A DNA stretch of 64,000 bases from contig NC_049982.1 in NCBI RefSeq assembly GCF_000003815.2, positions 7,979,849 to 8,043,848 of the forward strand, read 5' to 3'. Of the stretch, positions 1 to 63,251 are shown one piece after another. Below the pieces are notes generated by a model, which did not search any database, was not told where the DNA came from, and worked only from the letters and a program-made list of their open reading frames with translations. The stretch's first letter is position 1. Each line of letters starts with the position of its first letter. The position numbers and the translations under genes are program-made. Source of the stretch: Branchiostoma floridae. Its lineage: Eukaryota > Chordata > Leptocardii > Amphioxiformes > Branchiostomatidae.

Positions 1-63
1 AGTTACCGGCGGCTCCAACAGGTGGCGCACTTCGGTGTGTCGATCAGAGTTGCCAGAGAAAAC
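1..63 (-). CDS. G0 discoidin exon 6, partial
   Basis: Reads VFSGNSDRHTEVRHLLEPPV plus a Thr from a CCCAG acceptor at 64-68. It matches the equivalent exons of G2, G3, G4 and G6, which continue TARYVRFWPQ and end VEVLGQ. The rest, and the short last exon coding DCTGD-stop, should lie just left of the window. Confidence 0.85.
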
Positions 64-3000
64 CTGGGATGATATTTTGAAGAAAAAAAACAAGTGACTG
101 TAGGTAACACACTTTGTGACGTAATTATGGTATGTCAGTTGTGTTGCTTTCAGTGGTGTGTGACATTGTGTTTATCATTCATCAACAACCATACTGTTAC
201 ATTCCTATGAAAAAAACAACCATTGGCCCGCGGCATCAGATGTTTCCGTAAATTTACCATAGATATGTGATAATTATGATACTCAAAGTAGAAGAAAATT
301 TGTCAGGAATACCAGAAACGGTTGGTCCACGATGTCAGCTGTTGTCGTTACACCACGAACGAACATTTGTCACATCTGTATGATATTGACAGTCCCAGAT
401 ATCGAATACGATGAACAAAAAGAACGAAACGAAACCCAAATGATCCAAATTACAGAGAATATAGCGGCGATTTGGGAAACATTACGAGCGGACGACATGC
501 AAAAGAAACGTGCAAGTACATAAGCACCCCGGTATATATTCCTCTCCCAGCATTTTTCCTTTCCCGGCATCTTTTCCTTTCCCGTCGTATTCCCGGATAA
601 AAATCGGGAATAGACGTCAGACTTGAACCAATACAACCGAAAGACCTACATTTTGTAGGGGTGATTTCTGAAATCATCACATCGATTATAAAAACAGCTA
701 TCGCGAAAAGAAAGGGACGTGCTTCATTTCACACCGGTGTACAGACGACATGCCAAACCACATACGAATGCGGCAAACAGAACATAGAGATATAGGTACT
801 AGGTGCGAACGCTCACCGAAAAAAACGTTCATAATACTTGTCGACGGAGGTTACCCTCCAGTCACAAAGTAAAAATGAACCGGCTACCAGCAATGCTACA
901 TGGAAACAGATAAAATCTTTGCAGTAACACATAAATGATTTATTAGACTAAAGAAGTAGTACATCTACATACCCTGAAATATAAGAAAAAAGCTCTATCA
1001 AATCTGGAAAAAAAAATCATATATGACTTCTGTCAGTTCATATTAAACCTGTGGATTTCTTGCCCTGGGTAAGAACAATAAGGAAGTGCTCCCACTGTGA
1101 CTTGTCCAGCAGTTTGAATGGTGGATTGACCCCCATAACCACATAAACTCATAAACATCCCAGACTGTCTACCAGCTAGGAACAATAGTCAGAGACAGAT
1201 TAGCATATTACTGGTCACTGATTCAAATACTGTACTGGTTCAAAGTACTGGTTTTCATAGGAACATTATCAAATCATACAGAATGACCCAAAGTAAGTAA
1301 CAAAGTTACACAATGCAAGGTTTCAATTAGATAAGATCATGTGATAATAAGATAATACTAGGGGCGTGCTAAAAGTAATGCCCCTGACCCATTTCCCATA
1401 GCAGGAGATTAATGAAACTTGGCACAGATATTTATATTTCAGCCATACCATAGGTATGGTGAAATATATTGTATTCGTAATGTTTCTTTCTCCTGTCAAA
1501 TCTTCAGAACACGGTATCTCCGTTGTTCCTCAACCGAAAGACTTGAAATTTGGCACAAGGGTAGAGTGGGCCAATACCCTCGGACGTTTTTTTTTTTTTC
1601 ATTTTTCCCATATCTGTCTCTTAAATGATTTTATTAAGGTTTTGGGGTCATCTTAAGACCAAAACGGTATATTTTGGCCCCCTGTACCCTGGTCTTACAA
1701 TGGAATGGCCTGAAATTTGGTGTAGATAGGCATTAGATAGTTGGTAAAATGATCCAAGTAAAAGTTTTGACATAAACTACTTTAAAATGATTAATTTTGG
1801 CACTTTTCTGAGGGGAAATTTGTTTTCTTTTGGCCTCCTGACGTGACCTTCCGTGACCCCGCACGGAGCCCACACCTGTGCGCGAAGAGGGCGAAGGCTA
1901 ATCAATATTCATAAGCGGGGCCTCACGATTCCGTATATACTGCAGTGTTCCCGCCAGAATTTTTTACAGCGTCGGCACACGGGGCCCGGGGTCCACCGAA
2001 GATCGCCGAAGGCCCCGGCCCGGCAGGGTCCAGGGGCAGAGCCCCGTTGGGGGTAATCTCCAAGCAGATCCTACAATGGCATAAGATAGTACCAAACTGG
2101 CCAAGGAGTGTAGTCAGCCAAGAGGTGTACATTTGCCATGTAGCAAAACACACTCCTAAGCCGGCTTCAGTCCTCTGCCAGCTTTTGATACTATATTATG
2201 CTACCGTAGGATCTGCTTGGAGATTAGTTGGGGGAAACTCTTGCACTTTGGGCTATTCAGAAGGCTTATTGTATCAGTTTTTAGGGGCATTTCTGTGATG
2301 CGATGGTATATTTTCCCTGCGCTGTTAGCTCCGTACGTTTTTAAAAGGTTCCGTTTATCACAGAACTGCTGTTGTTTCAGATATCTTACGGACTTATGCT
2401 TACAAACACGTAAATTGCTAACTTGCAACCAGCGCTTTACTATATACAGTAAATTTCAGCACTTTTTTGAGGGAAAATTGGTTTTCTTTCTGCCTTTTGC
2501 CGTGACGTCACCCCGCAGAGCCCCGCACGTACAAGTTAAATGAATTTAACGAGCCAGCCAATCAGCGAAAAGGAAGACGAAGTCTAATTAATATTCAATA
2601 GCGGGGCCTTCCAACCCCGTTTATATAGAAACACGTGCATATCTTGACAACACAGCGGACGAATGTCACCTTACGCCCGGTTTTATATACATGTATATAT
2701 AAAATAGTTTTTTTGCGAGGATTTGGAGTTAACGACAAGGTCATTTGGACGGTAGCAGAAGTTACGCGTTCCTTGAACGTCAGAGTACATGTCTTTGTCG
2801 ATGAATTTGCAAACATTCCGCGTAGCAATATCAATCATTTTCGACAGATTTGACTTTAGCAGGGTAAGTTGAGACAATCGAGGAAATGTTACTTGGCGGA
2901 AATCGCGGGACAATTGGCCAGTTTAGATTTGATAAGTAAGTTTAACAATGGCGAGAATGATTATTTCCTCATCAATATTTATCGTTAGAATGTTTTGAAC

Positions 3001-6000
3001 TGTAAATCTAAACAATTGTGTTACCTGTGCAATGTTTATATGAATAAAGATACATTTTGCCAGCACGATGTTGGAGCAACATGATAACTTTATGTCTGCA
3101 TTATGCCACTTTTATTGTTGAAGGCGCGTAAGCAAATGAACAAGCATGACAAAAGAAATATTATGATACTATTTATTCGGTAACATTCACTTTTATTCAC
3201 GATTCTAGTTTGCAATGCCTGCAAACTCCGATCGGAATCACCCGGACCTTGTACGAGTTAAACGTAAACGATTTAACGTAAAATTGGAATTTATGACGAA
3301 TCCGACACGTTAGTTCAAGGAGCTTTTATCAGATAAAAGCTCCTTGGTTAGTTCAGATTCTTTTCTCAGTAGTCACGCTTCCTATTTTCATAGTTTAAAA
3401 ACTATCGACAAAGGAAGCGTTAAAGAATGTTTTTCTCCTGGTGCAAACTGTAAACACACGTCACCCACCACTCGTCTCCGATGTGACGAAGCCATTCGCG
3501 CCATTTTTATTGGATTTTAGACGGACTCGACAGTCAATTGCAAGCCGTCCACCGCGGCCTTGGCATCGTTTCCTCGCGATCGGTGTCAGCCCTGACTGCA
3601 CCGCTGCCCCTTGTCGTTGTCCCTCAACTTAGTTGTAGTAGAAGCAATAGTTTCCACGTCGTCCACTTCTTGACAGGTCGACGCCTGAGCGAGATACTTG
3701 TGTATGTTATCCAGTCCCAAACATCGCAGTTTCTCGGTTTATTTTCGCAAAGTTTCGTGCCTCTTCTTGATTGACGTTATGTTACCGCCTTTGTTGGAGC
3801 CACTGCTGGCTGTGATTGGTCGCAAGTTAATTCGATTTTTCGCATAAAGTGGCACGCCCTGTCTAATCGGTATATCTAAAGACTGCAGCCAAGGCTGTTG
3901 TCATGGTAACGACACGTATAACAACATTTCCCACATGCGAATCAGGTTGGGCACGTCTTGTACTGCGTGCGTTTGATTTGAGGTCAAGTCGCTGAATTTA
4001 CAAGTCTCACCTTCGGTTTTACAAACAGCACGTGCACTTACTTTTTCACCAGTCGTCTTCCAGAGCGTTCAAAATTATGAAAGAAAAGAGGCTTTTTCCT
4101 GTCATTTTTTCGGTAAAATCTTAGGAAAATACCGACACGTGTTGGTGCACAGATGTTGGCAAGATATGCAAGTTTTTCTAAGGCGCTGAATTTTGTCCCC
4201 GTGACTGAATGGTGGCATTGCAAACCGGAAGTACACTTTTTACGTCGCATTTTGGTAACTTTATCGAGAACTTATTATACCATACAGTAGAACTCTGAAA
4301 ATAGTCTACCACGTCCGGTATGAACTTCGGCTTCATGTCTTCAAAGAGAAGCTTCAAAAGAAAGGTAAACAAATTTGACTGATATTTTTTCCGTCCACCT
4401 TTATACCAGCGTTAAAACGGTAAATACTATTGTAACATCAATAGTTTTACAACGTTGTAGCGGTGTTTAACAGAGATAGAGTCAAAGGCGCGGCAGGAAA
4501 ATATTACTGAGTGAATACTGAGCGAATTTTCAGCATGTGGAGCGCCGAAGCCTCCATTTTTTTTTGCCTTGCCGGGCGTCGAAGTCTTGTTGAGGCCTGG
4601 GAAATTTTGAAATCTTGACCCTCCGAAACGCCATTTCTGGCATTTTGACGAACAAATTTCACTGATAGTCCGAGCAAAAAATTTTCCTAGGCCCTCCCCC
4701 CCGCTCAAATTTTTTTTCCTAGGCCCTCCTCCTGGCTCAATTTTTTTTTCCTAGGCCCCTATATGTTGTTTTTGGTAAGTTTTTGTCGACACATCTTGGC
4801 TTCCGGGTATCGCTCCGAGGACGCAAACAGTGAAGCGCCCCGGGCAGCTTGACCGATAATGTCATCGCTACGGGCTTTCGAAACTCATTAGGATATTGTG
4901 AGATTTTAGGTCCTACAATTTTCTTGCAAATCAGATATGTTAGACCAGATGGTACATTTTTACTTCCTGTATACTGTATAGGTGTAGTTCACGGGGAAAA
5001 TTTTGATTGGAAATACGGCGTCGTTGAAAATAGTCTCTTAACTATACGTTTCAATGGGGGCGAGAAACTGGGGTGTGCCCCTAAATGTTCCATTTTCGAG
5101 CAGGGGTTATTTGAGTCAGTTAAATGTTGTATGGGAAAAGCTATGGCTGAAATATGCTGTATTTGCTCCTAAGCAAATGTCGGCATTTCTAGTAGTCATT
5201 CTCTTCATAGGTATCACCCAGAGTTTTGCATTTCTCCCATCGTTTGATGCAGCTCTGGACACCGTTTTTGTAGGACACCCCAGGTTGGTCCTCCAACAGA
5301 TGCCTCATCAATGGCAGAAGAGGGACGACCAGGTCTGGGAGCTGTTTCCACAGACTTCCGGCCACGTTTGAATTCAGGATGCCAGCGTTTTACAAGGTCA
5401 TATGATGGGGCATCATCACCATAAGTTTCATTCATTTCATCAAAAGTCTTCTTTGGTGTGCGTCCTTTCAAATACAAAAACTGGATCACTGCGCGACACT
5501 CAACTGGTTCCATTTCACACCTGGTCCATTTCGCACCTGACTCAGTTCAAACACCAGTAAATCAGAAACCACAATTAGTTCAGAGCTGTTTTTTGCAACA
5601 TAAGCAACATAAGCCATAGAGATATGAATCATTACACATACAAAATTTCATCTAGATCAGACGACTGGAAGTGGGTCAGGGGCATTACTTATTGCACGCC
5701 CCTCGTATCTGCAATTCTTGAAAGAACAACTTTTTTCAAATTTCAAATCAGCCCTGTCAAAATTGTATCAGAGCATCTATTTGCATCTACATTTTTAAAC
5801 TTGAAAATGTCTTCCTTACAACTGAATTAGCTCTCATGAGTTGTGTGTGTAGAACAATAACTTGTAATACTTGACTTATAGTAAGAAACCAGTATAAACC
5901 TTATAATGCTCTGTGGAACTGTACACACAACTGCCAGCCAATGTCTCACACTAAAGAGCAACCCAGTGTTTTTTATTACTTCATATTCTGGGCTAAGTGT

Positions 6001-9000
6001 TCTTCAAGCTAACTTCTTCATGAGTAGTCTAACTTCAATTTCTTATCTTTTGTCTCTAGATTTCAAACATGATTTGAAGAGTAACTTGTACTTGGTAAAC
6101 TTACTCAGCCAGGCCACCATTGATGTACACTGTATGGGTGCCCGTAGCATACTGAAGGGCATAGTTTATATTATCTGCTCTTTATATAGTTTTACCGGCC
6201 CCTATGGTAAAATCCTAGTTAACATCAGCCCTACAGTATCGGCTATAGATTATTAGTCCTATTCGAGAATGACAGTTTTTGCTTCATCAGTCACATCTGT
6301 CAGGTCAAAACTAATTTTTCTGCAAACGTGGACTAGTCAGCAACATTTATTGGAAACATAAAAAAATCCTTGGAAATATCAAACTTTTGAAGACAATAAT
6401 TTATAATACCAACCTTCTCACGTCCCAGTTTGTCCTGGTATGTAGACCACGTGGTTCCGTGTCTGCTGAAGCGTAGTTTGTAGGAGGTCACCCACTGATT
6501 TGACGCACCAGGTCTACCCTGGGTGATAACTCCAGCTACAGTAGTCTCTGCTCCCATGTCAACCTGAACAGGAGGAAAACGGTATCTTGGTACGGTAGTC
6601 AGTGCACATGTTCTACTTTTGTACCTGTAACGTTACATATCCTACATTTGCATCAAATTTCCACCCAGTAACAACGTTGTAGGTGTACGTTGTTAACAAC
6701 GTAACCAGGTCACCTCGCGTATACGGTGTCTGGATAGATACGCCAGGGCATGATGTTGACATCTTGTCTTCTCTGCTCGTGATGTATTGTATCTCATACA
6801 AATTATATCAAACTGTTTTTCAAACATAAACAGAAAATGCGACAGCACATAGCCACATACAATCAATAGCAGCAAAAAAAAAAAGAAAGAAACTGGTCAG
6901 AAGATGTTAACCGGGGCCGGGGAAGAAAAATGATTTGACGAAAGGAACCAAAGAATATAACGACAGTCCAACATATGAATCAAGGGCACAATTACAAAGC
7001 AAGTTGCACCGTGCGGTGGTCCTCTCACCTGTAGCCACTGGTTGGTGTTCAGCGGGTGTGCGGCACACCAGGCTCCGGCCCATCCTCCCTGGCTTGTGAG
7101 ACTCTCCTCCAGGGAATGAAGACGAGCTTTGCTGGTGGCACAATGTGGGTGCGTGGAGGATGCAGTAATGTGGTCATCAGGAATAGCGCCGCTCTGCATA
7201 CCTAGTGGTACTGCAGTGCACGGCTGCTGCATACAGGATGTGACCAAGGCGGTTAGATAAAGACAAAACGTCACTGATGGTGAATGTCATGTCACCCATT
7301 GTCATGTGCCCATACATGATCATACAGAACACACCTTACCTGTGGGCAGGGCCCTCCACACCCTCCGCATCCACCAGCCGGACCAGGAGGCCCGGGCGGC
7401 CCGGGAGCACCATCACGGCCGTCCCGCCCGTCTCGTCCGGCCGGTCCCTCAGGACCCCGGAAGGGACCTGTGTAGATGCAGTAAGGTTTATAGTTACTTA
7501 GAAAAATTCATGATCACAAAATGCAGTATCATATACTAGTAGCGGAATTTTTTACTGGTGTCAGACGAGACGGAATAACAAGGACAATTTCCACTCTGGC
7601 ACTATTGTAGTCAACTTTCTCGCGAAAATGGAACCGACAAGTGACCATTAAAGGTTACCTGTGAAGTAACCACCGATCAACGTCTATGTATTCCTGGTGC
7701 ATTAAAAAACCATAGGAATTGATTATTGTCTGAGCATCAGGCAACCACCCTCAATCCTTGTAACAAATATCGTTGCAATCGCCAGAAACGCCCATTCCAC
7801 ACACTCCCACGCTACTGAAAACAGACAGCTGTTCCCAATTAAGGAGGTTGAGAGAGGGAAGACCAGATCACTCCATATCAACAAAAGGGGTTAATATTTA
7901 TTTTAAAACAACCAAAAAACTGCAACTTCTAATACGCACTAAAGCACAATGGCTTACATCTCAGTATTGCTATAGCAAACGTGATTGCGTACTAAAGATA
8001 TTGGTCCGGAATCACAAACGAATAATCACAAAAGGAATTGACTCTAAAATGCCACAATGAACATCTATATAACTTCATAACACCTACACAGGAAACCACA
8101 TACATGTATTAGTGTAGAATCTTGTCATGAACTCACATTTTTATATAAGGTAACTTGACACTACATACTACTAAATAGTATGATTCACGGCGTAAAAATG
8201 ACTTTTCTTTCACGTGGGACGGTTCAATTAAAATATAAACTAGAGTTCCACGACCCCATACCTTCGCCAAATGATTCTACCCTTTACAACTGCTGTATTG
8301 ATTCTGTTTGTCATTAATTATGCAAATTAGGTATTCATTTGCATAAATTATATTAGTTGGTCATCTCCTTTACCAAACAAAAGGCGTACACAATCTATGT
8401 TAAGAAATAAGGCTTAATCGCATTTTCTGATAATTTATGCAAATGAGGACCTCATTTACATAATTAATGTTTGACGATGTTCACCTGCACATAACTTTCA
8501 AATGCTACAAGTACGAAAGTTCCTGTCAGTTACCACAATGACATTATAGCATTTTCTCATTAATTATGCAAATTAGGTCTTTATTTTGCATAATAAATAT
8601 ATATAAATATTCTTTTTTTCTCATTTACAAATGCCACATGTTGCAATGGTCCTATAATTGAACTGAGCCTGTTAAGACAATTTTCTAATTAATTATGAAA
8701 ATTAGGTTCTAATTTGCATATTTAATATGTAATTATATGAAGCATCACTTCAGCTATCTACATACAAAACATCATGACAATCCTTCAATCCCTTCTTGAG
8801 TTATTCCCTTTCAAAGTCTGAAACTAAACCTTGCAGTTACAAAACAAGCCGCTAGGGTGCCCAAATCTATACTACTTACTCTCGGTCCCACAAGCTATCT
8901 ACCACTTAAAAATCATGACCACAGCATATCCAGAACCTGAGATATCAAACCCGGAAGTTCCGCTGCAGTACCGTAACAAGCCCCTAGGGGGCCCAAAATC

Positions 9001-12000
9001 TAATCGTTTTCAGGTCTTATCAAGATCTACCCACATACCAAATATCAATACAATCCATCCAGGCGTTATGCCGGTGTTCTACACACATACATACATACAA
9101 ACACACGCTACCCAAAATATAACCTTCTTGGCGAAGGTAATAAGGCCTACAATTAGATCATTTGTCAGCCATGTTTGTCCAACTGGGAACTTTTTGTTAG
9201 GCTACCAAAAATAGGGAACTTCTCGTGGCTTGCTTATGCGTTGTACATATACCGATTTTGGAAATGTGTAGAAACGTACCGCAACACATTTCGAATTTCA
9301 ATGGAAATGGAGATTTTTAATAGAGATTGTTTGCATTCAACTAGATTCCGATAATACGTACATTTAAACTAAAACAATGCCTCCGATTACATTTAAAAAT
9401 CCATGCAACCAAATGGGTAACACCTGAATATACAGCTGAAATAACTCTACATGGACGATTCACACGGTCTCTTTCTTCTTCTGTTTTTCAAGAAAAAATC
9501 TATCAGGTAAGGAATCATCAGTAATTGTGTAGTCTACATTCAACACTGATGGTTCCCACTAAGATGAATTGACTGTGATGTTGTGCGAATTTTAGGACAG
9601 AGTGTTAACAATGTGCTAATAAAAATGGTAGGCTTAGAAATTCAGCAACTAAGAAGGTACAAAATTAATATCTAATAATTTGAACTTGCTGGATAGACTA
9701 TAAAATAGTGTTATTTTATACGCTTGTGGTTTGTAGAACGAAGTTTGTTAGAAGCACAAAGCGATAAAAAATGATCAGATTTTGACCTGCATGGATAGAC
9801 ACAATAACAGATAGATTTTATGACCAGCCAGACATGTACTTTGTCTACACGTCATCAAATGGTATGTAGTACGCAAATTAAAACGGATTTGACTTTGACT
9901 TTCAGAGGGCTACAGATGACACTTATGGAGACGGTGGTATGCAGAAGTAAATGAATACGACGTAAAAAAACTCTCTTGTATATAGAATACATGTGTCTAC
10001 ACCGTAGCAAGTACCTCAAACATTTCATTATACTGTGTCATTGTATAGCGCGTACATGTATGTAGACAAAAGGAGGCACCGTAAGGAGATTTATCGATGG
10101 TTTTGAGTACTTTATAATTACCTAACTGGTAACAGTCGGAACACACAGACGTGAATCCATTGTAATATCTGAAACAATTGAAAGTAGCAGCTGGGAAAGG
10201 GTGATGAATGATTGAACACAGACACTCGACAGCTGTATGACAACAGTGACAAATTCAGCAATCGATACATTAATACTAGTCTTTTCTAGAATATACTTCT
10301 AAAAATATACGGAGGTAAATGTAATATTAAAATATACAAGTTAAGTTAAACGCTTCGGCCTGTTACACTTATACATTTTCTCATTTGAAGAGCGTTACAT
10401 ATGTATTGCCTTAGGTATGTAAATATGGAGTCTGAAGTCGTAACCTAAGTATATTGAAAATATTTGTTTTTGTATTGCGTCTACTAGATTGAAAATGTTT
10501 GTTTCTGTAATGTGTGCACTAGATTTACATACGGTATCGACTACAGTATAGGCGGGACATACCAATAGAAAATGATTGTCATTTTCAATTTTTTGAAGAT
10601 TTGGAGCCATAAAATGGCTACCTGTAGATTCCTTAAACAAACCCCAATCAGAACCACATCATCAATCATAACGCGTATGTTTGAGTTGGCAGACGTATAT
10701 TAAAACTAGAGATGGTCTGATTGATTTTTTTCTAAATTTAAATAACTGCGCTTGGATCTTTAATATGTAACAATGGCTTAGGTGTAGCTCTCACTGTGGA
10801 TCGGAATTGATCATCCAGTACAGTGGAAGCCGCTTAATTGCACACCCAATTTGCCAGCGAATTTTGTGCAATTATCCGGCGTGTGCGATAATGCGGAGTT
10901 GGTCATTTGGACCGCATCACCACGGTAGGAGGGGCCGAGAGGTGGTGTCGGAGGTAGTACAACGCACAGTTTATTTACGTGTTACAGTAGTGCTGTACCT
11001 GTTGTGCTCCGGACGTCGTATACATGTCTTCACGAAACATCATACTGCAATGCACTTGAAATCGAAACTAAAAGTAAGTTACTGTATACGTTATGTAGCT
11101 TCCTGATCACGAAACTAAAACACTGCATGCGCACGGCCGAAGGCGAGTGTTATGTCCGTCTGTAGGCCCCGAGTCGCTGTGTTGTTTCCTACTGGCTGCC
11201 AAGAACATAAAACCACTGCATAAGTATTTCCCCGCGACCCTAATTACGTAATTAGACAATGGACAGATAGAGAACATTTGTTATTGAGTATGTCATAGCA
11301 AGTTGTCTGCCAAATCGTAATGCCGGCTTTGACAACCTCTAGCGGGCGGGCGTCTCTTCATGGTGCCGACCCCACAAAATCGTTTCCTTTTGATCCCAAT
11401 AACAATTTCATACATGTTGTCAGAATGGCGACTTCACAAAGGCCGTTATCGGCTTATTTGTACCGTGTCTGACGATTCTTAGCACGCATTTTCAGTCAAT
11501 TTGCCGACGATGTTTGACAAATTTTCGTGCAATTATCCGGCAATGGTGATTTTTGTCGTGCAGATAAGCGAAGTCACTAACAATGGAGTGAATGGGAGAC
11601 TGTTTGGGATTTGGGGATTCCGTGCAATTACCCGAAGCGTGCGTTTATCCGAGGTGCAATTAACTGGCTTCCACTGTATAATAGTCCACAAGACGGTGGT
11701 ATTTCTAGCTGTTTAGAGTTGTCCTTTGTAGATTTCAATTCCAAAACGTACCATATCTTATATCAAACAGTTCCGTTTTGCAATGATTAAAGGGGAATAC
11801 ATTTTACACAGTTCAAATCACAAGCTTACCTTCGGCGAGGGAGACGATGTCGCTTGTACGTTCCAGCTGCATTTTGCTTTTCCGCACATTTTCTATGTGA
11901 CCTTCAACTTCTTGAAGACGATCCACCAATTTCATATCATGAAAACGTGGAACAAGCCCCAAAAGGTCATGCCAACGCCTGCAAAAATCAATCCCTTCTA

Positions 12001-12474: not shown

Positions 12475-12942
12475 GCCGCGGCTAAAATGTTAACTGGGCA
12501 CAATAGCCCACAGACTCATTATGTAAATACCTGCAGGATCAAAGAAGCGAAAAAAAAAACATCACCCATTGAATACCACTCGCTGTTACCGCCCCCTAAT
12601 AAAGAACACGCGGATGACTTTTTTAAATACCAAGGATTTTGCTTTGAGAATTGCGTAACTGGTCACAGTCGGTCTCTTTTGAATCCCTTTGGGTTCTCCT
12701 CAAATGTAAATATTGTAAAAAGATAGGTGAAACATAGTAGCCTAGGTATCATCTGATTTCTACCAGGATTCTTACTTTCGCTGCCATGAAAAAAAATTGC
12801 AGTGCCGGGAGTATAAGGAGCCCGGTTAGTAACGTATGTTTGGGATATTCAACAATATATAGTTGGTACCCATAGGCGCATGATGGGCTTGGAAACAAAC
12901 CTGGTTTGAACAATACGCGAAACCAAACAAGAAGGGCGCATG

Positions 12943-13187
12943 TGTATCGGGGACCGGACGAGAAGTGTAAGGGACTATTGGGGCGTTATATTTTCACTAG
13001 CGTGTGTCTGTGTGTCTGTATACAAGAAATCTAAAAAAAAACCATTCCCAGCTTTTATCACGCGCTACCAACACACCAAGTATGAAACTAATCCCCCCAG
13101 AGTTAAACTCAAGAACGGCTGGGAGGATTGGTTTCATACTTGGTGTGTTGGTAGCGTGTGATAAAAGCTGGGAATGATTTTATTTTA
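12943..13187. mobile_element. Foldback element present only in the left duplicate
   Basis: Arms around 13,022-13,088 and 13,123-13,187 are nearly perfect complements (e.g. CCAACACACCAAGTATGAAA against TTTCATACTTGGTGTGTTGG), with about 35 bp between. The right copy runs directly from GGGCGCAT to TATATTTCTTGGGCC near 47,360. The arm sequence is related to the 37.7-38.3 kb repeat. Confidence 0.7.
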
Positions 13188-49911: not shown

Positions 49912-50576
49912 TCTGGCTATAAATGCCTGATAGGTTCTGAGTGCACAAATAAAGTAGCTACATTTGTATCTCATCATCTCCTTGTTTGCATGCATTAGTC
50001 ATAATTTCTCCACGACTAAAGACAGTGTAGTAACTAGGAACAGACAGCAACACCAGAATATAAAAACAAGGAATGTAGTCATCCTTCTTTACATCATGAA
50101 GCCTTTGACATCTTCATCAAGCCAGTACAAAGTACACACCGGCTACACTACAAAAGTGTACTGCTGTAATCACCAAGACATGATTATTGATATGGAATTG
50201 GCTGAATATTATTGTCACAAGCTTGAAATGGGTAAACCTAGAGACCTGAAGTAACTATTGCCTATTGGTGGAGCCATGACTCATTACATGCTACTTCTAA
50301 ACCCAGCTAAGTCACCTCAAATAATGCAAACAAACACCAAGACAAACAGACCTAAAACAACGTCTCCATTTTTACTTAGATGATTAGCTATTAAAGATAA
50401 AAAAACAACAATGTAAAGAAGGTACATCATTCTATTTTCTGTGTACAAAAAACTAATTCCATGTACAAAAGGACTGGTGCATTCAAAGAGGAAAGAATCA
50501 CTGTCTGCTGAACTGGCAGTTTTGTTAGTGAAAAAATAAACATTTCGACATTCAATTACAACATTGTAGCACAAAC

Positions 50577-53500
50577 CTTCCCTGCTTGAAAACATCTTCC
50601 TGGGAGGTGCATATGTCGTTGCACGTCTGACCGTCCCCGAAACGACTACAATCCCGACGGATGGCGAAGATGTATGCTCCTCGGTCGGTGACCGCTGTAC
50701 AGATGCTCTGTGCCAGCATATCACGGTAGTTGTGGTCTGGTTGAGGAAACGTAGAGAAAATGTGGAAGGTGCAAATATAGACAGTAAATCATTCAATATC
50801 CATTCAAAGTGTGGAATATCCATAAGCATGGCAACTTAAGCGTGTAGATGGAACAGTACAACACATGTACTGAAAATGATTTTGACTACCTACTCCTAGC
50901 CTGTTTGCTACATGTATACATGTATACACCTATATCTGAAGTATTTACAAAGCAGCACAAATGTTGAAGTGTATATAGACCATGATGCTGTGAACGAGAG
51001 CAGGACGCATATGTGGTTACAAATTTAAATATGCAACTTACTCGATCCATTTACTCCAGGTGGTCCGGGTGGGCCCTCTGGTCCAGGAGGACCCTAGGGA
51101 CATTTGTGATTAGCTGTAATTTTTCTTTCTTCAAAAAACTCTACATTTACAAATATGTCAGAGAGCACTAGTTGATTTATACGGCAGATGATGATGGCGA
51201 TGCATGGGTCATGCATGTGCTGCTCAAAGTTTGCCAAAATGTGACGCCAAAACAAACTACAGAATTTCAGACCTTCTTAAGAGCTGTTTTTGACAATATA
51301 GATTTTATATTCAATTTTTGCTTCTTGGATTTGGAAACCACAATGGCAACGGGTCACAATGATCATAAAACAACTCCGCCCAATGTTCAATAATACACAA
51401 ACCTATGATTAAAATTATGTTTTTTACAGAACGCTTACACAAAAATGTCCTACCTGTTCGCAAGACGGCTCCCCACACCCTCCACATCCGCACGGAGGCC
51501 CGGGCGGCCCGGGAACACCATCACGGCCGTCCCGCCCGTCTCGTCCGGCCGGTCCTTCAGGACAGCGGAAGGGACCTGCTAAATTTGAATATCTACACTG
51601 TTTATCATTAGCGACAAAAGGATATTGATGAAAGTGCGTTTCATGTCGCCACTTTTTAACAAAATGAAAGTACAAATGTACGTACGGAGACCTGAGGGTC
51701 TACGTCGACGAGCAATTAAACTTAACGAAAACGTAACATAAAAATTTTCCGATACTGCAATAGAAAACGTAACACAACACAACAACTATATATCGTGAAT
51801 TTGACACAAGACGTATGTCAAGTACAGTGCAAGTGTGCTGACAGTGCAAGCTTCGAGTCTAAGAACGCGAAAATTGTGAATAATGACAAAAAGAAATGTT
51901 ACATAAACACGCACTTTCAACGGAATCGTTGGATCGCCTGTACCTCCGCAAGGTGGCGTTGTGTTCAGGGACACCGTCAACTTGGTTCGACTTTATAAAA
52001 AAAAGCAGATTTAGGCTTTTTGTTTAGCTGCTTGTCTTGGCTCTTGAATGTTCCTAATTGCTATAACATCTCAAGAAGGCAATAAAACAGGGAACCATTG
52101 GCCTAAACATTTGCCGCAAACCACGTTACATCCGCTGTATGTTGATAGCATTTCAGACACACAAGAACACTAGAAAGGCCGACATTTGCTTGAGAGCAAA
52201 TACAGCATATTTCAGCCATCTCCCTCCCCATGCAACAGTAGACAGTTCTAAAATCACCCATGTGTGAAAACGGAACACTTCTGCTTAAAAATCACTTTTA
52301 CTAAGCACAGTTTAGTCCAAAAAGGAATCTTAAAGAAATACCCCGTGCAAGAATGGACTCTTTCAGTGCACCCCATTGGAGCTTTCACAATAGACCAGTC
52401 TAGAAATGCTCCCGCTGAAAACATGGCCTTTGAATCAGAAACCCAGTCCAAAATTAGACTCAGCAAAAGAGTCCCCCCGTGCATGAAAAGGTAAAATAGA
52501 CCAGTCTAAAAACACTTCAATCTGCTAAAAATAAAATTTTGAATCATCACCCATCCATCCTGAATTTGAAAAAATCCCCCTCCGTCCAAGAATGGACACT
52601 TCCTGTGATACCCCTATGTAAAATGGACCAGTGCAAAAATACATCCTCTAAAATAGGACTTTGACATAGTCATGAAGTCCAAAAATTATTCCTTTTGTAA
52701 GAATGCCCCCCTCCGTGCAAGAATGGACTATTCCATCATATCCCATGTAAAATTGCAAAATAGACCAGTCCAAAAATACTCCCACTAAAAGACTTTACAT
52801 AATCATTGGTCCAAATATGAATTTAAAAATAAAAATTAACCCCTCCGTGCAGGAATGGACTCTTCCAGATATATACAGGCTCGCTGATTGGCTGCCGTAA
52901 CCTACTCAGAATATTAAATCAGCCTACACGAATGGTTGCCAAATAGGTCTTGTATAGACATGTACACGTGCAGTCTGCAGGTGGAGGGTCAACGACCTTG
53001 AGGTCATTGACCTCTCTGGCCATTTGAAAATGACCACAAAATCCCAAAATATATCATTTTGAAGTGATTTATGCCAAAAATTATACATAGGTCATTTGGA
53101 TAAATATCAAGAGCACCCCTTTACCAAATTTCAGGTCATTTGGTTGTGAAACGGGGGTACAGGAGCCAAAAATGTCCTATTTTTGACAAAAAATGGCCAA
53201 AAAATCGCAAAATTAAGCATTTTGTTGTACTGTATGCCCAATTGTTGTTGAATCCATGTGCGCATATGTAAAGGGCACTCCTATACAAAAATTTAGGTCA
53301 TTTGGTTGTGAAACGAGGGTACAGGAGCCAAAAATGTCCTTTTTTGTAAAAAAAATGACCAAAAGTCACAAAATTAAGCAATTTCTTGTACCATATGCCA
53401 AAACTGTTATTGAATCTATGTGGGCATATTATTAAAGCATCTCTTTACCAAATTTTAGGTCATTCGACTGTAATACCAGGGTACAGGGAGCCAAAATATA

Positions 53501-54375
53501 CATAAAAATTGCCAAAAACCTCAATAAAATCATTTTAAAGGCAGATATGAAAAAAATGAAAAAAACGTCTAAGGGTATTAGCCCACTCTACCTTTGTGCG
53601 AAATTTCAGGTCATTCGGTCCAGGAACGACAGAGATAACGTGTTCCGAAGATTTGACAGGAGAAAGAAGAAAGAAGAAACATTACGAATACAATATATTT
53701 CACCATACCTATGGTATGGCTGAAATATAAAAATCTCTATTTTCTTCTAACTACAGACCTAATGCCGAGATGTTAAGGCTAAGAAGCCAGTGTTGTTATG
53801 GGGTTAACAGGGGCATATTCACGGTTCATTGAACTTACAGCCATGTACTGTCAGATTTTACTTGCGTGTTGTAGCAAGCCACTGGCAAAAAATACCTCTC
53901 GAAAGTTGTGTTCCTCAGCATGCCCGAGTTGGACCTTGGTTTCCAGCACAGCCAGTCTCTCCCTCAAAGCCGCCCCGTCAGCTTTCTCCTTCTGTAACTC
54001 CGCACGTTCGCTGTCTAGTTGAGTCTTCAGGGACGACAGTTGGATTTTCAGGGCCGTTATTTCCTCCTTGTGCGAGAACGCTTCCTCCTTGTCTCCAGTA
54101 GCGGCGCTTTACTTGATCTCCATGGCCAAGGTACGATCCTTCAGCGTCAGGATCTGATCTTTCAGTTGAGACACTTCTTGGGAGCAGTGAGACACGTCTT
54201 GCGAGGACTTCTCACGGACATGCTTAACTTCGTGAGCGAGGAAGACGAGGGCCGCCACCACCAGCACCCCCGCTCCGGCCGCCACGGCCACCGTCACCGG
54301 TCGGGCCGCGCCGGATCGGTCTCGGCGGGCCCGGCCGGCAACTTCGCTTACGTGAAGAAGCTTCTCAGAGCTCAT
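50577..54375 (-). pseudogene. G5: broken copy of G1 (nonsense in coiled coil, last exon deleted)
   Basis: Exons 54,375-53,896; 51,990-51,915; 51,575-51,454; 51,093-51,042; 50,736-50,577. In the head a CAA to TAA change (54,109-54,111, against Gln in G1) stops translation just after MEIK. The last tail exon is absent because about 1.03 kb present in G1 is missing, so the Cys-rich domain would run into intron (GRFVLQCCN, stop). A Helentron-like element sits in the first intron. The two collagen exons are separate (GEPSCEQ, then GPPGPEGPPGPPGVNGS), as in G7, which is probably the ancestral state. Translation could give only a membrane stub. Confidence 0.8.
52170..53729 (-). mobile_element. Helentron-like element, right copy, with empty site
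   Basis: On the minus strand it starts TATATTTCAGCCATACC and ends GTCGGCCTTTCTAG after a hairpin (ATTTGCTCTCAAGCAAAT). ATGGCTGAAATAT before the hairpin is the inverse of the 5' end. The left duplicate at about 18,579 is uninterrupted (minus strand GAGATTTTGTTC), which places the insertion between two T, as for Helentrons. No coding frame. Confidence 0.65.
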
Positions 54376-54780
54376 CGTCAGCTTGTGTCGACAACAGACT
54401 AACAGAGAGAGGACAAATCTATAACGTCCCTTTCTGTTGCCCGAGAGCACTTCCACCCTTCAACAGTCGGGACTTGAAGTAAGAAAATATACCCTGTAAG
54501 AAGAATGCGTAATTTACAGCAACGTTAACGTTTCAGAGTACAGAAGCATTGATTGGTTGAGGTGTACAAGTGGTGTGATCTCCCAACAATGCCACCTTTG
54601 CACTTGACGTCACAACGTCAACACGGCAGCAGTTGGTAAACAGCTGTGTCTTTTGTTCAGACGAATGTTCCACACCAACAGTCCGAAAGGAAGGAACGGG
54701 GAAACGTAACCTTTTCTTTTCCGTGAAACAAAGTGAGAAAGTGTTTGTTTTGTAAAGAGCTGGTGTAGTCGCTCTCATGG
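54376..54780 (-). promoter_or_regulatory. G5 upstream region
   Basis: Duplicate of the G1 upstream flank, with the CCAAT box (complement of ATTGG at 54,552-54,556), the TATA-like string near 54,415 and the CRE intact. Confidence 0.4.
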
Positions 54781-54953
54781 TCATTCACATCGACCCTACA
54801 TATAAAAACATGAAACTCCGTTGTTCATTTTTTTAGTTAACCGCTTCGGAATGATGATGTGATGTAAACATAATAGACAATGCGTTTATGTAAAACTGCA
54901 GCTGTACAGAAATGTTGCAATAAAAGAGTCTATATGTATGTGAAACAGTATGC

Positions 54954-54959
54954 TTTATT
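54954..54959 (-). terminator. Poly(A) signal of G6
   Basis: AATAAA on the minus strand about 1 kb past the G6 stop; the hAT element lengthens this 3' UTR by 0.43 kb. Confidence 0.6.
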
Positions 54960-55454
54960 TCTGACTTTAAATGCCTGATAGGCTCTGAGTACACAAATGA
55001 AGTAGAGACATTTGTATTTTATCATCTCCTTGTTTGCATATATTAGTCAAAATATCTCCACGACTAAAGACAGTGTAGTAATTAAGGACAGCAACACCAG
55101 CATACAAAAACAATGAATTTTGTAATCCTTCTTAACATCACGAAGTCATTGACATCTTTATCAAGCCAGTACACAGATCACATGGCTACAATATAAATGT
55201 GTAATGCTGTGCAGCTGTAATCACCAGGACACGGTAAATTAGCTGTACGTTGTTCTCACAACTACAGACCTGAAGTAACTGTTGGTAGAGGAACTTCCTT
55301 CTTGGCTTTTCTCATTAAATCAATTATCATTAAAGAAAATTCAATGATAGAATCATTACGTGCCACTTCTGAATTTCTTGTAAATAGAGTTAAATTAGAG
55401 TAAAAGAAGAAAACTGGTGTTTCACTTCAAACTACGAAGCAGATACATGTACAT

Positions 55455-55951: not shown

Positions 55952-58900
55952 CTAGTCACCGGTGCAGTCCCTACAGAGGAGAACAAAAATGATTTGTTGT
56001 AGAGTTGTATATCAGTTAATGCACAATGAAAATCGTCACTGATGCCTTTACTTTTACATTTCGCTATGCGTGTGTTGTTCACTTTGTCATAGGTCATCAA
56101 GTTTCCTTGCTGTTTCTGTACCAGGGTTTATTTTTACAGGAAGGGGTTGCTTGAGCCTCGTCGAACAGTGGACCCCAATTTCATGTTTTTTTTTTTCTGA
56201 AAGGTGAGGTACCCTTTCCCGGATCTATTGAAAATCACCTTATGTGAAGTCACATGGAAAGAGAAAACTCCAGTAGTGTACTTACTGCCCCAAGACCTCC
56301 ACCCGCATGCTGATGTGTCCAGTCCATGTCTGCGGCCAGAACCGGACGTAACGTGCAGTTACCAGCGGGTCCAACAGGTGACGCACTTCGGTGTCCTGAT
56401 CAGTGTTGCCAGAGAAGACCTGGGGTGGTATTGTGAAAAATACAATGCGGAAAAGTGCAGAAAAATAGGTGTGTTGCACATTGTTGATGTCGGCCGAGGT
56501 ACATAACCCAACATCTTGTTGGAGATATCCAAATTACCGAATGTCCAAGACTTGCCGAACGCCAAAACAACCGGGGACCTGTTCCCCAATACCATGAAAC
56601 TAGGGTAACTCCTGAAAAATCACATTAGTTACACAAACAGCTATGGTGTGATATGTGCATCATCTCGCGCAAACGGGTAGGCGACGCGCTAAAGTACATC
56701 CGAATGCAGCAAATGGATCGTGAGATACAGCTACGAATAGCATAGCAACCCCAACTACAATACTCCGTCAAGAGGTGATCCTCCTTCACAGAGTAAAAAC
56801 ATTCTTGGAAATATCAAACTTGTGCAGAAGACAATGATTACCAACCTTCTCACGCCCCAGTTTGTCCAGGTATGTAGACCACGTGCTTCCGTCTCTGCTG
56901 AAGCGTAGTTTGTAGGAGGTTACCCTTTGTAGATAAGTGTCGCTGGACCTACCCTGGGTGATAACTCCAGCTACAGTAGTCTCTGCTCCCACGTCAACCT
57001 GGACAGGAGGAAAACGGCATCCTGGTACGTTATTCAGGGTACCTATTCTACTTTTGTATCTGTACATATTCTACATTTGCGTCAAGTTTTTCACCCAATA
57101 TATTAACAACGTAAGTTACGTAACCAGGTCTCACGTACATTCACGGTGTCTTGTTAGATTCTCCGGGATATGGTGTTAGTCGTTGTCTTCTAATAAATAT
57201 TTATTGTATCTTATAAAAACTATATCAAACTGTTGTTCAAACATAAACAGAAAATGCGACAGTACATAGCCACTACAACCAATGGCAGCAAAAATGAAAG
57301 AAACTGGTCAGAAGATGTTAGCCGGGGGAAGAAGAATAATTTGACGAAAGGAACCAAAGAATATAACGACAGTCAAACATATGAATCAAGGGCACAATTA
57401 CAAAGCAAGTTGCACCGTGCGGTGGTCCTCTCACCTGTAGCCACTGGTTGGTGTTCAGCGGGTGTGCGGCACACCAGGCTCCGGCCCATCCTCCCTGGCT
57501 TGTGAGACTCTCCTCCAGGGAATGAGGACGAGCTTTGCTGGTGGCACAATCCGGGTGTGTAGTGGATGCAGTGATGTGGCCATCAGGAATAGCGCCGCTC
57601 TCCATACCTAGTGGTACTGCAGTGCACGATTGCTACATACAGGATGTGACATTGGTGGTAGAGGTCATGTCATTCAATATCCATTGATCCACATACGGTG
57701 CAACATCCATTTCGCATTGCCCAAGACCCCGATACAACAGCTACACATGTCTCTGTTATGGCAAACTGTTTAACAAAGGTTACTAGCGAACACTATGTCT
57801 AAAGCTTGTCTATGTCTAAGTTCCACGTAGGTTGATGTAACTTAAGTTTACTGATTATATCGATTCCAAATAAAATGTTCGCCTCAAGCTGAAGCTCGTT
57901 AGCACAAGAACAGGTCACCTTGCTATATGACAATAACTACAGTACTGTACGCACCAGACAGGATTGTCCTCCACACCCTCCACATCCACCAGCCGGACCG
58001 GGAGGACCCGGCGGACCGGGAGCACCATCACGGCCGTCCCGCCCGTCTCGTCCGGCCGGTCCTTCAGGGCCTAGGAAGGGACCTGGGCAGCAGTAAGGTT
58101 TACCATTACTTAACAAAAATACTTAACAAAAATACATGATCACAAAATGCACTATCATATACTAGTAGCGTTAAATTTTTGATGGTATCAGACGAGATGG
58201 AATAACAATAAGGACAATCTCCACTCTGGCACTATCGTAGTCAACTTTCTCGCGAAAATGGAACAGACAGGTGACCATTAACGGTTACCTGTGAAGTAAC
58301 CACCGATCAACGTCTATGTATCCCTGGTGCATTAAAAAACCCATAGGAATTGAGTAATGTCTTCCCACCTAAGCCGTAGGGTGTTGTGACGGTGTTGGCC
58401 GCTCTCTTGGACCGCCGCATGGTGGCGCTGTGATCTCCGGCATGCTTGACATCATCACTGACTTGACTCGGTTTCACATCGGTGTCAGTCTCCTGTTGTA
58501 TTAAAAATGTTCAAAACTTTACTCCGCATCCGCACTTATAGGTTCCATAAAGCACACTGTGGTTATGTCCTTGAAATTATCCTGCGAAGGACAGTTGTTT
58601 TAGTCCAGTCAGGTTTCATCCAATCAGAGATCCGTGTGCATGCATCATGTGTACCGTTTGGTACCGGCCGGTTACGTTGTCATGATTACACATTGCGATA
58701 AAACAAGGAAAGGGTTTAGGGCATACTTCAACTACAAATGAAGTGTTTCCAAGTTGATTTATAGCTTGTCTTCTGAGCAGTCTGGTAGTAGAAAGTAGCC
58801 ATTTTACTTTCTGCATGTTGTTCCCAACTTCCAGTCACGCGTTATTTTGTCAAGTCTCTGGAATCAAGCCTTAACTGACTTAACTCGACAAGTCTAAGTC

Positions 58901-59978
58901 GGCCTTACCACTCATGCTTATGATTGTAACATTGTGCAAACGTACCACACATTATCATGATGCTACTTTCAGACAGTTTATGTAAACCATCTCCCCTATT
59001 ATTCCACATCATCACCGCACACATCGACACAGTTCACTGCGTACAGCTATCTAAAGTAGAAAAAACAGACATGTCGAGTTTTTGCCCGAGGCAGGTTACC
59101 TGTCATGAGGTGTGGGTGACCCAACCTGCCCAATTATCCGTGGTGTTCATGTGTATGATATATATAGTCAGAACGTATTTTTGTTTTTGAGAAAATATGA
59201 GACAATTGTAGTTCTGAACGCTATCATATTGCTTCCCTGGCGATGGTGAAATTTAGCGTAAAGTGAGGGAGAGGTTAATGTAAGCTTTACAAGTTGATTG
59301 GATGCTGACACAGACATATCCAAAACCTGAGATTATACCGTTGTAGCTTAAATCTGGTATATTTGACAACATAACCGAACCTGAATATAAAAAGACTGAA
59401 GAACTTTCAATTATAGCTCACTATGATGTGATGTTGTCAACAGGGAGGCCGCTAATGTTATGGAAGCACTGAGAAGAATTTGTGCCCCCCCTTACCTCAT
59501 GAGATGTTTCGTACGTTGGTTCTTGTTCGTTTTCGACACCGAGTTGGAACTTGGTTTCCAGCACAGCCAGTCTCTCCCTCAAAGACGCCCCGTCAGTTTT
59601 CTCCTTCTGTAACTCAGCCTTGAGAGACGACATCTCCGCACGTTCGCTGTCTAGTTGAGTCCTCAGAGACGACAGTTGGATTTTCAGGGCCGTCACTTCC
59701 TCCTTGTCTCCAGTAGCGACGTTTTGCTTGATCTCCATGGCCAATGTACGATCCTTCAGCGCCAGGATCTGGTCATTTGCCTTCGCTAGTTGATCTTGCA
59801 GTTGACTTGCGTTCTTTCGCACATGCTTGACCTCGTGAGCGAGGAAGACGAGGGCCGCCACTACCAGCACCCCCGCCCCGGTCGCCACGGCCACCGTCAC
59901 CGGTCGGGCCGCGCCGGGTCGGTCTCGGCGGGCCCGGCCGGTAACTTCGCTTACGTTAAGCAGCTTCTCCGAGCTCAT
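55952..59978 (-). CDS. G6: type II membrane collagen with F5/8C domain (complete)
   Basis: Exons 59,978-59,496; 58,492-58,369; 58,082-57,955; 57,632-57,435; 56,998-56,846; 56,419-56,286; 55,970-55,952 encode 412 residues. Basic N terminus, transmembrane helix about 27-47 (ALVFLAHEV), coiled coil to about 150, ending ENEQEPTYETSHE where the other heads end GHAEEHNFRE. Exon 2 (162-202) has RSKR (188-191), a furin-like site with different residues from the RYRR of its relatives, and lacks their NAT sequon. Collagen 203-245 ends GGCGGCGGQSCL; discoidin 246-412 opens SCTAVPLGMESGAIPDGHIT and closes EVLGQDCTGD. Its head and upstream flank are the most diverged of the membrane heads, while its first discoidin exon and collagen intron are nearly those of G0. 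All splice sites and phases fit. Confidence 0.85.
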
Positions 59979-61604: not shown

Positions 61605-61964
61605 CTAGCGAACGCGACAGCAACAGTAGTTTGGTCCGCAGCTGGGATGGGCACAGCCACCATGATAGCGATATGCGGCAGGGCCAACTTTTCCAGCGTC
61701 AGTGTTGTGGTCGGATGAAAGGACAGGCCGACCTCCGTACACATGTATGGCATCAAAGCACTCTGAGGTGCTGTGGAAAAGAAATCATCATCAACAAATC
61801 ATGATACTAACGTTATATATCATATAGTGGCTAAATGATCACACATACGCGCGCGCGCACACACACACATGCGCATACACACACACACACATATATGCAC
61901 ATACACACACACACACATGTACACACATAAATATTGCATATATAGACATATGTCTATATATATT

Positions 61965-62027
<63 letters not shown>

Positions 62028-63251
62028 GCAGTGCCGTGTCGTACAGATAGATACAGTGACAGTATTTGTCAAAAACTAGAATTTGCGCACAGAGCCACAC
62101 CGACTTATCTTGATAATTCTGGTGACAGAGAACCACGACTTTATAACACAAAAAATACTGTGCCATTCAACAAAGACGTTTGATAGCAAACTCATTTCGT
62201 GAACAAAAGGACTGGTGCATTCAAATATTCAAAGAGGAAAGAATCACTGTCTGCTGAACTGGTAGTTTTGTAATTGAAAAAATAAACATTTCGACATTCA
62301 ATTACAACATTGTAGCACAAACCTTCCCTGCTTGAAGACATCTTCCTGGGAGGTGCATATGTCGTTGCACGTCTGACCGTCCCCGTTACGACTACAATCC
62401 CGACGGATGGCGAAGATGTATGCTCCTCGGTCGGTGACCGCTGTACAGATGCTCTGTGCCAGTACATCACGGTAGTTGACGTAGTCTGTGCCTGATTGAG
62501 GAAACGTAGAGAAAATGTAGAAGGTACAATAATAGACAGTAAATCATTCAATATTCATTTAAAGTGTGGAATATCCCTTAGCATGCCAACTAAAGTCTTT
62601 AGACGGATACAACACATGTGCTGTACATGATTTTGACTACTAAGAGGATCTAGGACTACCTACTCCAAGTCTGTTTGCCACATGTGTACACCTATACCTG
62701 AGGTATTAACAAAGCAGCACAAATGTTGAAGTGTATAGAGACCATGATGATGTGAACGAGAGCAGGACTTGTGGTCACAAACGTGGAACTTACATGATCC
62801 ATTTACTCCAGGTGGTCCAGGCGGGCCCTCTTGTCCAGGAGGACCCTGAAAACATTTGTGATTTAGCTGTAATCTTTCTCTCTTCAACAAACTCTACGTT
62901 TACAAATATATGTCAGAGAGCACTGGTTGATTACGGCAGATGATGATGGCGATGCATGTGCTGTTCAAAACGTGACGCCAAAACAAAGAATTTTAGTCCC
63001 TTTAAGAGTTTTTTTTTTATTTTTTGCATTATTTATTCAATTTGGCTTCTTGGATTTGGAAACGTGTCACAATGATCATAAAACGACTCCGCCCAATGTT
63101 CAATAATACGCAAGCTTATAAGGCTATATATGCCATACCTGTTTGCAAGACGGCTCCCCACACCCGCACGGAGGCCCGGGCGGCCCGGGAACACCATCAC
63201 GGCCGTCCCGCCCGTCTCGTCCGGCCGGTCCTTCAGCACCTCGGAAGGGAC
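61605..63251 (-). CDS. G7: collagen plus Cys-rich tail (5' exons off window)
   Basis: Exons 63,251-63,139; 62,845-62,794; 62,491-62,323; 61,770-61,605, with GT/AG sites and matching phases. Collagen exon 1 reads GPFRGAEGPAGRDGRDGRDG... and ends CGCGEPSCKQ; collagen exon 2 reads GPPGQEGPPGPPGVNGS. The tail has CTDYVNYRDVLAQSICTA, RRDCSRNGDGQTCNDICT, CFDAIHVYGG and ends CGPNYCCCRVR, then TAG. Compared with G1 it has three extra residues where the tail begins and three fewer before the final Cys cluster. A head exon must lie beyond 64,000. This intact tail shows that the deletion in G5 is derived. The domain is not one I recognise. Confidence 0.75.
61840..62024. repeat. Compound microsatellite (CA)n, (TA)n, (GA)n
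   Basis: Successive CA, TA and GA dinucleotide runs in the G7 intron. Apparent reading frames here (SLSLSL, IYIYIY, VCVCVC) are artefacts of the repeats. Confidence 0.95.

Follow-up and report, generated by a model that had tools for sequence, protein, structure and literature searches.

How are the parts of a large family of collagen-stalked proteins put together in the amphioxus genome, by splice choice within one locus or among separate gene copies, and what might such proteins do? The question is raised by a stretch of 64,000 nucleotides from Branchiostoma floridae (contig NC_049982.1, here C4:7979849-8043848; the window, i.e., this whole stretch), which contains eight family genes (G1 to G8), all on the minus strand. 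A preliminary description had noticed in them two kinds of head, a collagen linker and two recognition tails, and had supposed that any head could be spliced to any collagen-tail. The window is a slice of a larger tandem array, in which 43 units are arranged head-to-tail. With a probability of roughly 0.6, these ~43 tandem collagen-stalked genes would encode germline-diversified, multivalent recognition proteins, both surface-bound and soluble, which exchange parts among the copies.

The array and its units

Genome searches (513 Mb, 431 contigs) with the membrane head and the Cys-rich tail showed that many copies surround the window. The region C4:7,820,001-8,153,000 (333 kb) was scanned for family modules by tblastn, and the modules were grouped in units under the nearest upstream head. 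There are 47 such head-led units, to which the unit numbers below refer, across 307,873 bases of C4 (an array of ~308 kb), and 43 carry more than a head piece: 25 are membrane-F5/8C, 13 membrane-Cys, three secreted-F5/8C, one membrane-pentraxin and one has an unassigned tail (unit 3). Units 19, 20, 21 and 31 are head pieces without tails; unit 21 corresponds to the 5′ half of G5's broken head. The three head-tail pairs (out of four) reported earlier for the window, i.e., membrane-F5/8C, membrane-Cys and secreted-F5/8C, could all be modelled there, and no secreted-Cys combination occurs among the 43 units of the array.

The minus-strand tblastn matches comprise 44 membrane heads, 38 convertase exons, three secreted heads, 26, 27 and 28 copies of F5/8C exons 1, 2 and 3, and 13 and 12 copies of Cys exons a and b, respectively. 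Plus-strand matches consist of antisense-like collagen and one weak secreted-exon match (E 0.006). No unit in the array holds two tails and, under the nearest-upstream-head grouping, a single head stands before a single tail in all 41 F5/8C and Cys units, with a median inter-unit distance of 2.5 kb. Since no unit has two tails, the locus looks like a row of ordinary tandem genes rather than a splice-choice cluster, and the mixing of heads and tails is visible between gene copies instead of within them. Chance is excluded as the source of the array pattern, because the pattern recurs in 43 units with canonical splice dinucleotides.

An automatic check flagged in-frame stops in five of the 43 units (17, 22, 28, 42, and 46) and Ns in one (unit 41). 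In unit 10, a gap of 4,364 N lies at the expected place of two F5/8C exons. Neither a convertase exon nor a full collagen exon was detected in unit 5, the convertase exon was not detected in unit 9, and the head match of unit 32 begins only at residue 21. Flags for a missing GT concern the variant collagen end of unit 1 and repetitive pieces of the second collagen exon (units 2, 12, 27, 30, 35, and 42). Along the array, F5/8C and Cys genes alternate slightly above random (24 runs vs. a shuffle mean of 18.7, with 98% of the shuffles giving 24 runs or fewer), which looks as if multi-gene blocks had been duplicated.

Heads, stalks and exon phases

The membrane heads are type II-like, with an R-rich N terminus, a hydrophobic stretch and a heptad-rich segment, and the secreted head is formed by two exons with a signal-peptide-like start. 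Signal peptide, membrane span and coil were called from hydropathy, a heptad heuristic and reading by eye, with no dedicated predictor. A putative cleavage site, R-x-[K/R]-R, is found upstream of the collagen in all 38 convertase exons. With these calls, the exon models and the Pfam matches bear out both heads, the convertase-site exon, the collagen exons and the F5/8C and Cys-rich tails of the preliminary description.

The first collagen exon contains 7-13 Gly-X-Y triplets (Cys triplets counted) and its form is array-specific: the array accounts for 42 of the 51 genome matches with E 0.01 or better, and no match outside it is better than E 1.2e-4. The 13 Cys genes have a second collagen region, of ~92-139 residues in six, of 17 residues in five, and fused to the first exon in two; this region (e.g., C4:8064804-8064394) looks like stalk growth by repeats. 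In G7, the collagen exons (17836-17985 vs. 51042-51575 of G3) are fused in frame through loss of the intron and flanking codons. Outside the array, weak matches to the membrane head and to the collagen occur close together (~2 kb or less) and in one orientation at C18:14873431-14875080 and C19:6977165-6979248; these neighbors are possible distant relatives of the architecture.

Both head types enter the collagen exon in phase 1 in every modelled gene. In detail, the membrane head joins the convertase exon in phase 0 and the latter joins the collagen in phase 1, while secreted exon 1 joins exon 2 in phase 2 and exon 2 joins the collagen in phase 1. The exit phase of the first collagen exon is 0 (1 for the fused exon of G7). 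Collagen to F5/8C and the joins between F5/8C exons are all phase 0, and in Cys genes collagen A joins B in phase 0, B joins Cys exon a in phase 1, and a joins b in phase 2. The identical phases formerly assigned to all joins are therefore a property of the head-collagen join, the other joins being in phase 0, 1 or 2.

Splice dinucleotides are canonical at the donors of all 30 full-length membrane-head matches (35 of 44 when partial matches are included), at the acceptors of all convertase exons (38/38), on both sides of F5/8C exon 2 (27/27), at F5/8C exon 3 acceptors (28/28), and in the secreted heads (3/3). Full-length collagen matches have canonical acceptors in 31 and canonical donors in 29 out of 31 cases.

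Judging from these sequence features, the common form would be a type II membrane protein whose trimers are held together by the coiled coil and by a short, Cys-closed collagen helix. Cleavage at the furin-type site immediately upstream of the collagen may release the ectodomain, and the C-terminal recognition domain on display would mostly be F5/8C, otherwise the Cys-rich domain and once a pentraxin.

Tail domains

By its Pfam scores the identity of the F5/8C tail is certain (PF00754, 98.7 and 106.2 bits vs. a cut-off of 28.2). Its nearest solved sequences are a venom factor V homologue, factors VIII and V, neuropilins and lactadherin. The Cys-rich tail has no Pfam match, and its assignment to a known domain was rejected, the sole PDB match being at chance level (E 0.74). 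Relatives of this tail off the array are clear at C3 (two places) and C11 and weaker elsewhere in the genome search. The overall ratio of nonsynonymous to synonymous divergence (dN/dS) is 0.79 and 0.60 for the two Cys exons and 0.47 for the heads.

The two tails first described are at least three across the array. Unit 1, at the 5′ end of the array (C4:8136494-8133180), carries a pentraxin tail (PF00354, E 8e-10 and 3.3e-24 for two open frames), in front of which a phase-1 acceptor is readable by eye. In unit 3 (C4:8123595-8121980), head, convertase site and collagen are followed by what by eye is an EGF-like half; four neighboring open frames gave no Pfam match above cut-off, and the end of this unit is possibly a fourth tail or a decayed gene.

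Diversity at the F5/8C loops

The loop analysis included 24 of the 28 F5/8C domains; units 10, 22, 41, and 46 were dropped for missing exons, Ns or stops. Five segments were marked by anchors and by alignment to the membrane-binding spikes of the factor VIII C2 domain. According to excerpts of two sources, M2199/F2200, L2251/L2252 and W2313-H2315 of that domain are tied to membrane binding, and R2215, R2220 and Q2222-V2223 belong to the epitope of a membrane-blocking antibody (PMC9643838, PMC11808648).

In this sequence alignment, the five segments at the spike positions vary and the framework is conserved. Nonsynonymous divergence (pN) is 0.314 in the segments vs. 0.037 in the framework (Mann-Whitney p 8e-14 on columns), and none of 163 circular shifts of the mask reached this contrast. 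The ratio w is 0.88 in the segments and 0.24 in the framework, and by segment it is 1.77, 0.59, 1.21, 0.34 and 1.14. The segments are split among three exons (1-2, 3, and 4, respectively). Because different exons carry different segments, exon exchange would recombine loop sets.

Two features of germline-diversified receptors, tandem expansion and diversity at the ligand face, are thus present together, the face being placed by alignment and the segments chosen after inspection. The F5/8C spikes would give multivalent recognition, probably of microbial or damaged-cell surfaces. We infer an immune or adhesive role, as was done before, now with the help of the loop-focused diversity, and, given the number of copies and the variable loops, defence is judged a more probable role than matrix.

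Exchange of modules among gene copies

The head tree was built from 38 of the 44 membrane-head matches (units 19-22, 31, and 32 dropped). On it, the F5/8C-or-Cys label changes six times, with bootstrap ranges of 6-7 (F5/8C) and 5-6 (Cys), and the starred branches force at least four (F5/8C) and at least three (Cys) changes. Shuffled labels average 12.0 and 10.9 changes, respectively. Tail type is clustered, yet it has switched repeatedly.

Distance correlations, with gaps ignored, were calculated for 18 of the 25 membrane-F5/8C units (5, 10, 22, 28, 32, 41, and 46 dropped). Head distance follows that of the convertase exon (rho 0.71) and of the collagen (rho 0.57), and shows no correlation with F5/8C exon 1 (rho 0.09, p 0.19). 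Between the F5/8C exons, rho is 0.21 for 1 vs. 2, 0.10 for 1 vs. 3, and 0.47 for 2 vs. 3. For instance, units 13 and 36 differ by 0.6% in the head and by 18.5% in F5/8C exon 1, and units 39 and 44 by 0.4% and 16.7%, respectively. The pairs 8/34, 14/40, 14/47, and 40/47 are close in both. At 5% clustering, 16 distinct combinations of F5/8C exons 1-2-3 are found in 24 units.

One intron preserves a junction of two gene types:

7353-7952, minus strand: chimeric head-collagen intron of G8, its 3′ part running into the collagen exon, with matches to G4 and G2

The head side (7730-7952) matches the corresponding G4 intron (96%), and the collagen side (7353-7731) matches the convertase-collagen intron and collagen exon of G2 (87%), this match ending within 7 bp of the G2 convertase exon. 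In sequence terms it is the clearest trace of an apparent joining of a secreted head to the collagen-tail of a membrane gene through a break in a phase-1 intron.

As the DNA shows, the copies have swapped heads, collagen-tails and, in places at least, single F5/8C exons. These traces are compatible with gene conversion as well as with unequal crossing over.

Origin of the secreted head

Three genes carry the secreted head, which was seemingly captured at a phase-1 intron. It is rare (3/43 units), forms one duplicated lineage, and is paired each time with a neighboring membrane-Cys gene (units 17+18, 24+25, and 37+38). Relatives off the array are located at C12:14181624, 14200912 and 16954645, and at C17:4731850. 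In the one of these places that was read (C12:14182100-14184099, 2 kb), an EGF-like exon (PF12947, E 1e-9) comes after the second head exon; the head exon has a phase-1 donor and the EGF-like exon, by eye, a phase-1 acceptor. No array-type collagen exon was found near the C12 copies. The simplest reading would be a single capture of the head of an EGF gene at a phase-1 intron, and then triplication together with the adjoining membrane-Cys gene.

Genes of the window

From high to low coordinate, the order is G1, G2, G3, G4, two head fragments, G5, G6, G7, and G8. Exon ends were picked by hand and then checked by script. Positions are those of the window:

61605-63251, minus strand: G1, Cys tail; collagen A 63139-63251, collagen B 62794-62845, Cys exons 62323-62491 and 61605-61770
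59496-59978, minus strand: G2 membrane head exon (N-terminal stretch, hydrophobic span, coiled coil), 161 amino acids open, GT donor, phase 0
58369-58492, minus strand: G2 convertase-site exon (RRSKR), phase 0 in, 1 out
57955-58082, minus strand: G2 collagen exon, phase 1 in, 0 out
56282-57632, minus strand: G2 F5/8C domain; exons 57435-57632, 56846-56998 and 56282-56419; PF00754 E 3.4e-28
50577-54375, minus strand: G3, membrane-Cys, broken; head 53896-54375, convertase exon 51915-51990, collagen 51454-51575 and 51042-51093, Cys exon a 50577-50736
46749-46882, minus strand: G4 secreted head exon 1 (signal-peptide-like), donor phase 2
46254-46402, minus strand: G4 secreted head exon 2 (weak coiled coil), donor phase 1
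36823-40024, minus strand: G4 collagen and F5/8C; collagen 39897-40024, F5/8C 39533-39730, 37345-37494 and 36823-36960; PF00754 E 1.7e-30
32522-34965, minus strand: two truncated membrane-head fragments, tailless (34717-34965 and 32522-32797)
26390-29441, minus strand: G5, membrane-F5/8C, broken as assembled; head 29029-29441, convertase exon 28589-28682, collagen 27970-28091, F5/8C exons 26974-27120 and 26390-26527
20649-23550, minus strand: G6, membrane-F5/8C; head 23053-23550, convertase exon 22713-22806, collagen 22155-22285, F5/8C 21711-21887, 21029-21181 and 20649-20786
16943-19224, minus strand: G7, membrane-Cys; head 18745-19224, convertase exon 18325-18400, fused collagen A+B 17836-17985, Cys 17374-17533 and 16943-17117
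11830-12474, minus strand: G8 secreted head; exons 12341-12474 and 11830-11978
6414-7467, minus strand: G8 collagen and F5/8C; collagen 7340-7467, F5/8C exons 7029-7226 and 6414-6563
1-63, minus strand: G8 F5/8C exon 3, cut at the window edge and completed outside, in array unit 25
7954-20262, no strand assigned: gapped segmental duplicate of 44163-55454, with a secreted head and the adjoining membrane-Cys gene

The pattern of head, collagen and tail, previously extended to every gene, is that of the array, with exceptions in the window. The head of G3 has an in-frame stop and its last Cys exon was not found in the window; G5 has a frameshift in the head, and its F5/8C exon 1 falls mostly within a gap of 167 N (27605-27771); the two head fragments have no tail. 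G1 has its head outside the window (C4:8048347-8048823), and the end of G8 is also not in the window.

A remnant of a Mos1/mariner-type transposase lies at 5217-5546 on the minus strand (HTH_48, E 2.4e-10). Noncoding repeats are common to many intergenic stretches (e.g., 8229-9142, 14321-15250, and 48508-49441), some in both orientations, and are possible substrates for unequal exchange. Rfam and tRNA scans gave no matches.

Alternative explanations

Several observations weigh against recognition proteins that freely exchange their parts. As for exchange, none of 500 shuffles gave as few label changes on the head tree for either tail, and head distance tracks F5/8C exons 2 (rho 0.24, p 0.02) and 3 (0.32, p 0.006) weakly and significantly; because of these two results, exchange is limited. 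F5/8C exons 1 and 2 yield a single four-gamete set, as does each of three other module pairs; the remaining six of the ten pairs yield none. Haplotype switching in a heterozygous genome could mimic some of the mosaics. As for the loops, w is near 1 and not clearly above it, with two of the five segments below 1 (0.59 and 0.34), because pS is also higher in the segments (0.345 vs. 0.144, p 3e-4). Since synonymous divergence is raised too, part of the loop contrast is due to older or exchanged sequence, or to alignment. Moreover, the segments were marked after the variable columns had been inspected, and neither columns nor related genes are independent. The collagen run is short and remains below the cut-off of the Pfam collagen model, and adhesion or matrix roles fit the architecture equally well. 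A far-reaching form of the recognition reading is possible, at less than even odds: a 300-kb germline combinatorial array in a chordate without adaptive immunity, in which phase-matched heads (tethered or secreted), tails and loop-bearing F5/8C exons would be recombined, the collagen trimer partly shed by convertase, and individuals and haplotypes would differ in their loop combinations.

Lancelet genomes are highly heterozygous, and copy number and mosaics might partly be artefacts of assembly, with haplotypes placed in tandem or joined by switches. Blocks at 96-99% identity are repeated on one contig, units 12 and 45 have identical head exons, and the array includes four N blocks; still, this seems unlikely, as many unit pairs differ by 10-20% in single exons yet keep canonical splice sites and open frames, and allelic copies alone do not explain three tail types and a chimeric intron. 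It is rather improbable that the mature RNA lacks a join between secreted head and collagen, the head being just a fragment captured from an EGF-type gene. The relatives of this head at C12 and C17, with the EGF exon that follows at the place read, agree with such an origin, and the suspicion that these exons stem from an unrelated gene is partly borne out as regards origin. However, both head exons are open with GT donors in all three array copies, what comes next from the family is a collagen exon in phase, at ~0.75 kb in unit 38 and at 4-6 kb in G4 and G8, and no convincing EGF exon was found in the 333 kb scanned (best match E 0.03, 38% identity). A single splice-choice locus, with one transcription unit whose heads and collagen-tails could be combined at will by splicing, is highly improbable and was rejected, each tail being preceded by one head; the phase-1 join in every modelled gene would suit it, but a shared phase follows from common descent, and the short distance between units also speaks against it. 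The alternative that touches function is a family for adhesion or matrix, in which tethered, sheddable collagen proteins like colmedins or MACITs would vary their loops for self-ligand partners and not for microbes. Adhesion receptors also use F5/8C, as the matches to neuropilin, lactadherin and a discoidin receptor indicate, and a type II anchor followed by coil, convertase site, collagen and a C-terminal globular domain is an arrangement similar to that of colmedins, ectodysplasin A and MACITs (PMC7848082). This family is a lesser possibility, well short of even odds, since ~43 tandem copies with loop-focused diversity and swapped tails are, in our judgement, unusual for a structural matrix gene.

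Comparison with known systems

Class A scavenger receptors (SR-A, MARCO, and SCARA5) have a coiled coil and a C-terminal recognition domain. PMC7848082 describes them as type II membrane proteins that combine a collagenous domain with a further functional motif. The array genes resemble them in the type II anchor, the coiled coil and the collagen, all called from sequence features, and in the C-terminal recognition domain. Unlike them, the array genes have a convertase site before the collagen and form a large tandem array; their tails are F5/8C, Cys-rich or pentraxin, and no SRCR or C-type lectin tail, the type found in these receptors, is among those identified.

The same paper presents colmedins (gliomedin and UNC-122) and ectodysplasin A as type II proteins with a secreted collagenous ectodomain and a C-terminal globular domain, and the MACIT collagens XIII, XXIII and XXV as type II proteins with coiled coils and a furin-type site just before the first collagen domain (PMC7848082). 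Colmedins and ectodysplasin A share with the array genes the anchor, the collagenous ectodomain and the globular end, but that end is olfactomedin or TNF-like. To our knowledge, they are single genes without an array or loop diversification. The MACITs have the convertase site before the collagen in common with the array genes, where cleavage is predicted; their ectodomain has several collagenous domains, whereas array genes have one short collagen run and a recognition domain. Neither an olfactomedin tail nor a mostly collagenous ectodomain was found in the family genes.

Collectins, ficolins and C1q consist of a signal peptide, a Cys-bearing N terminus, collagen and a recognition domain. They would match the secreted genes in their manner of working, and differ from them in the tail, which is F5/8C and not a C-type lectin or fibrinogen domain, and in the unrelated head. 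Similarly, snail FREPs are a diversified recognition family of invertebrates comparable in operation, as are, to judge from excerpts of the sources, sea urchin 185/333 and amphioxus VCBPs. All three use different domains, while the array genes are collagen-stalked with alternative tails.

The array family differs in tail or ectodomain from scavenger receptors, from colmedins and MACITs, and from collectins and ficolins, and for this reason it is not filed as a member of any of these systems. Among the matches listed from the open-licence literature, there is no description of the array or of a type II collagen-F5/8C family. The parallel with vertebrate membrane collagens that was drawn at the outset is supported. 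From vertebrates, a few single genes are known for membrane collagens that end in a recognition or signalling domain; a cephalochordate appears to hold ~43 genes of this type in one array, using a discoidin tail. The array thus offers a testable system for the building of receptors by exon phase and intron recombination, and a candidate for a diversified recognition family at the base of the chordates.

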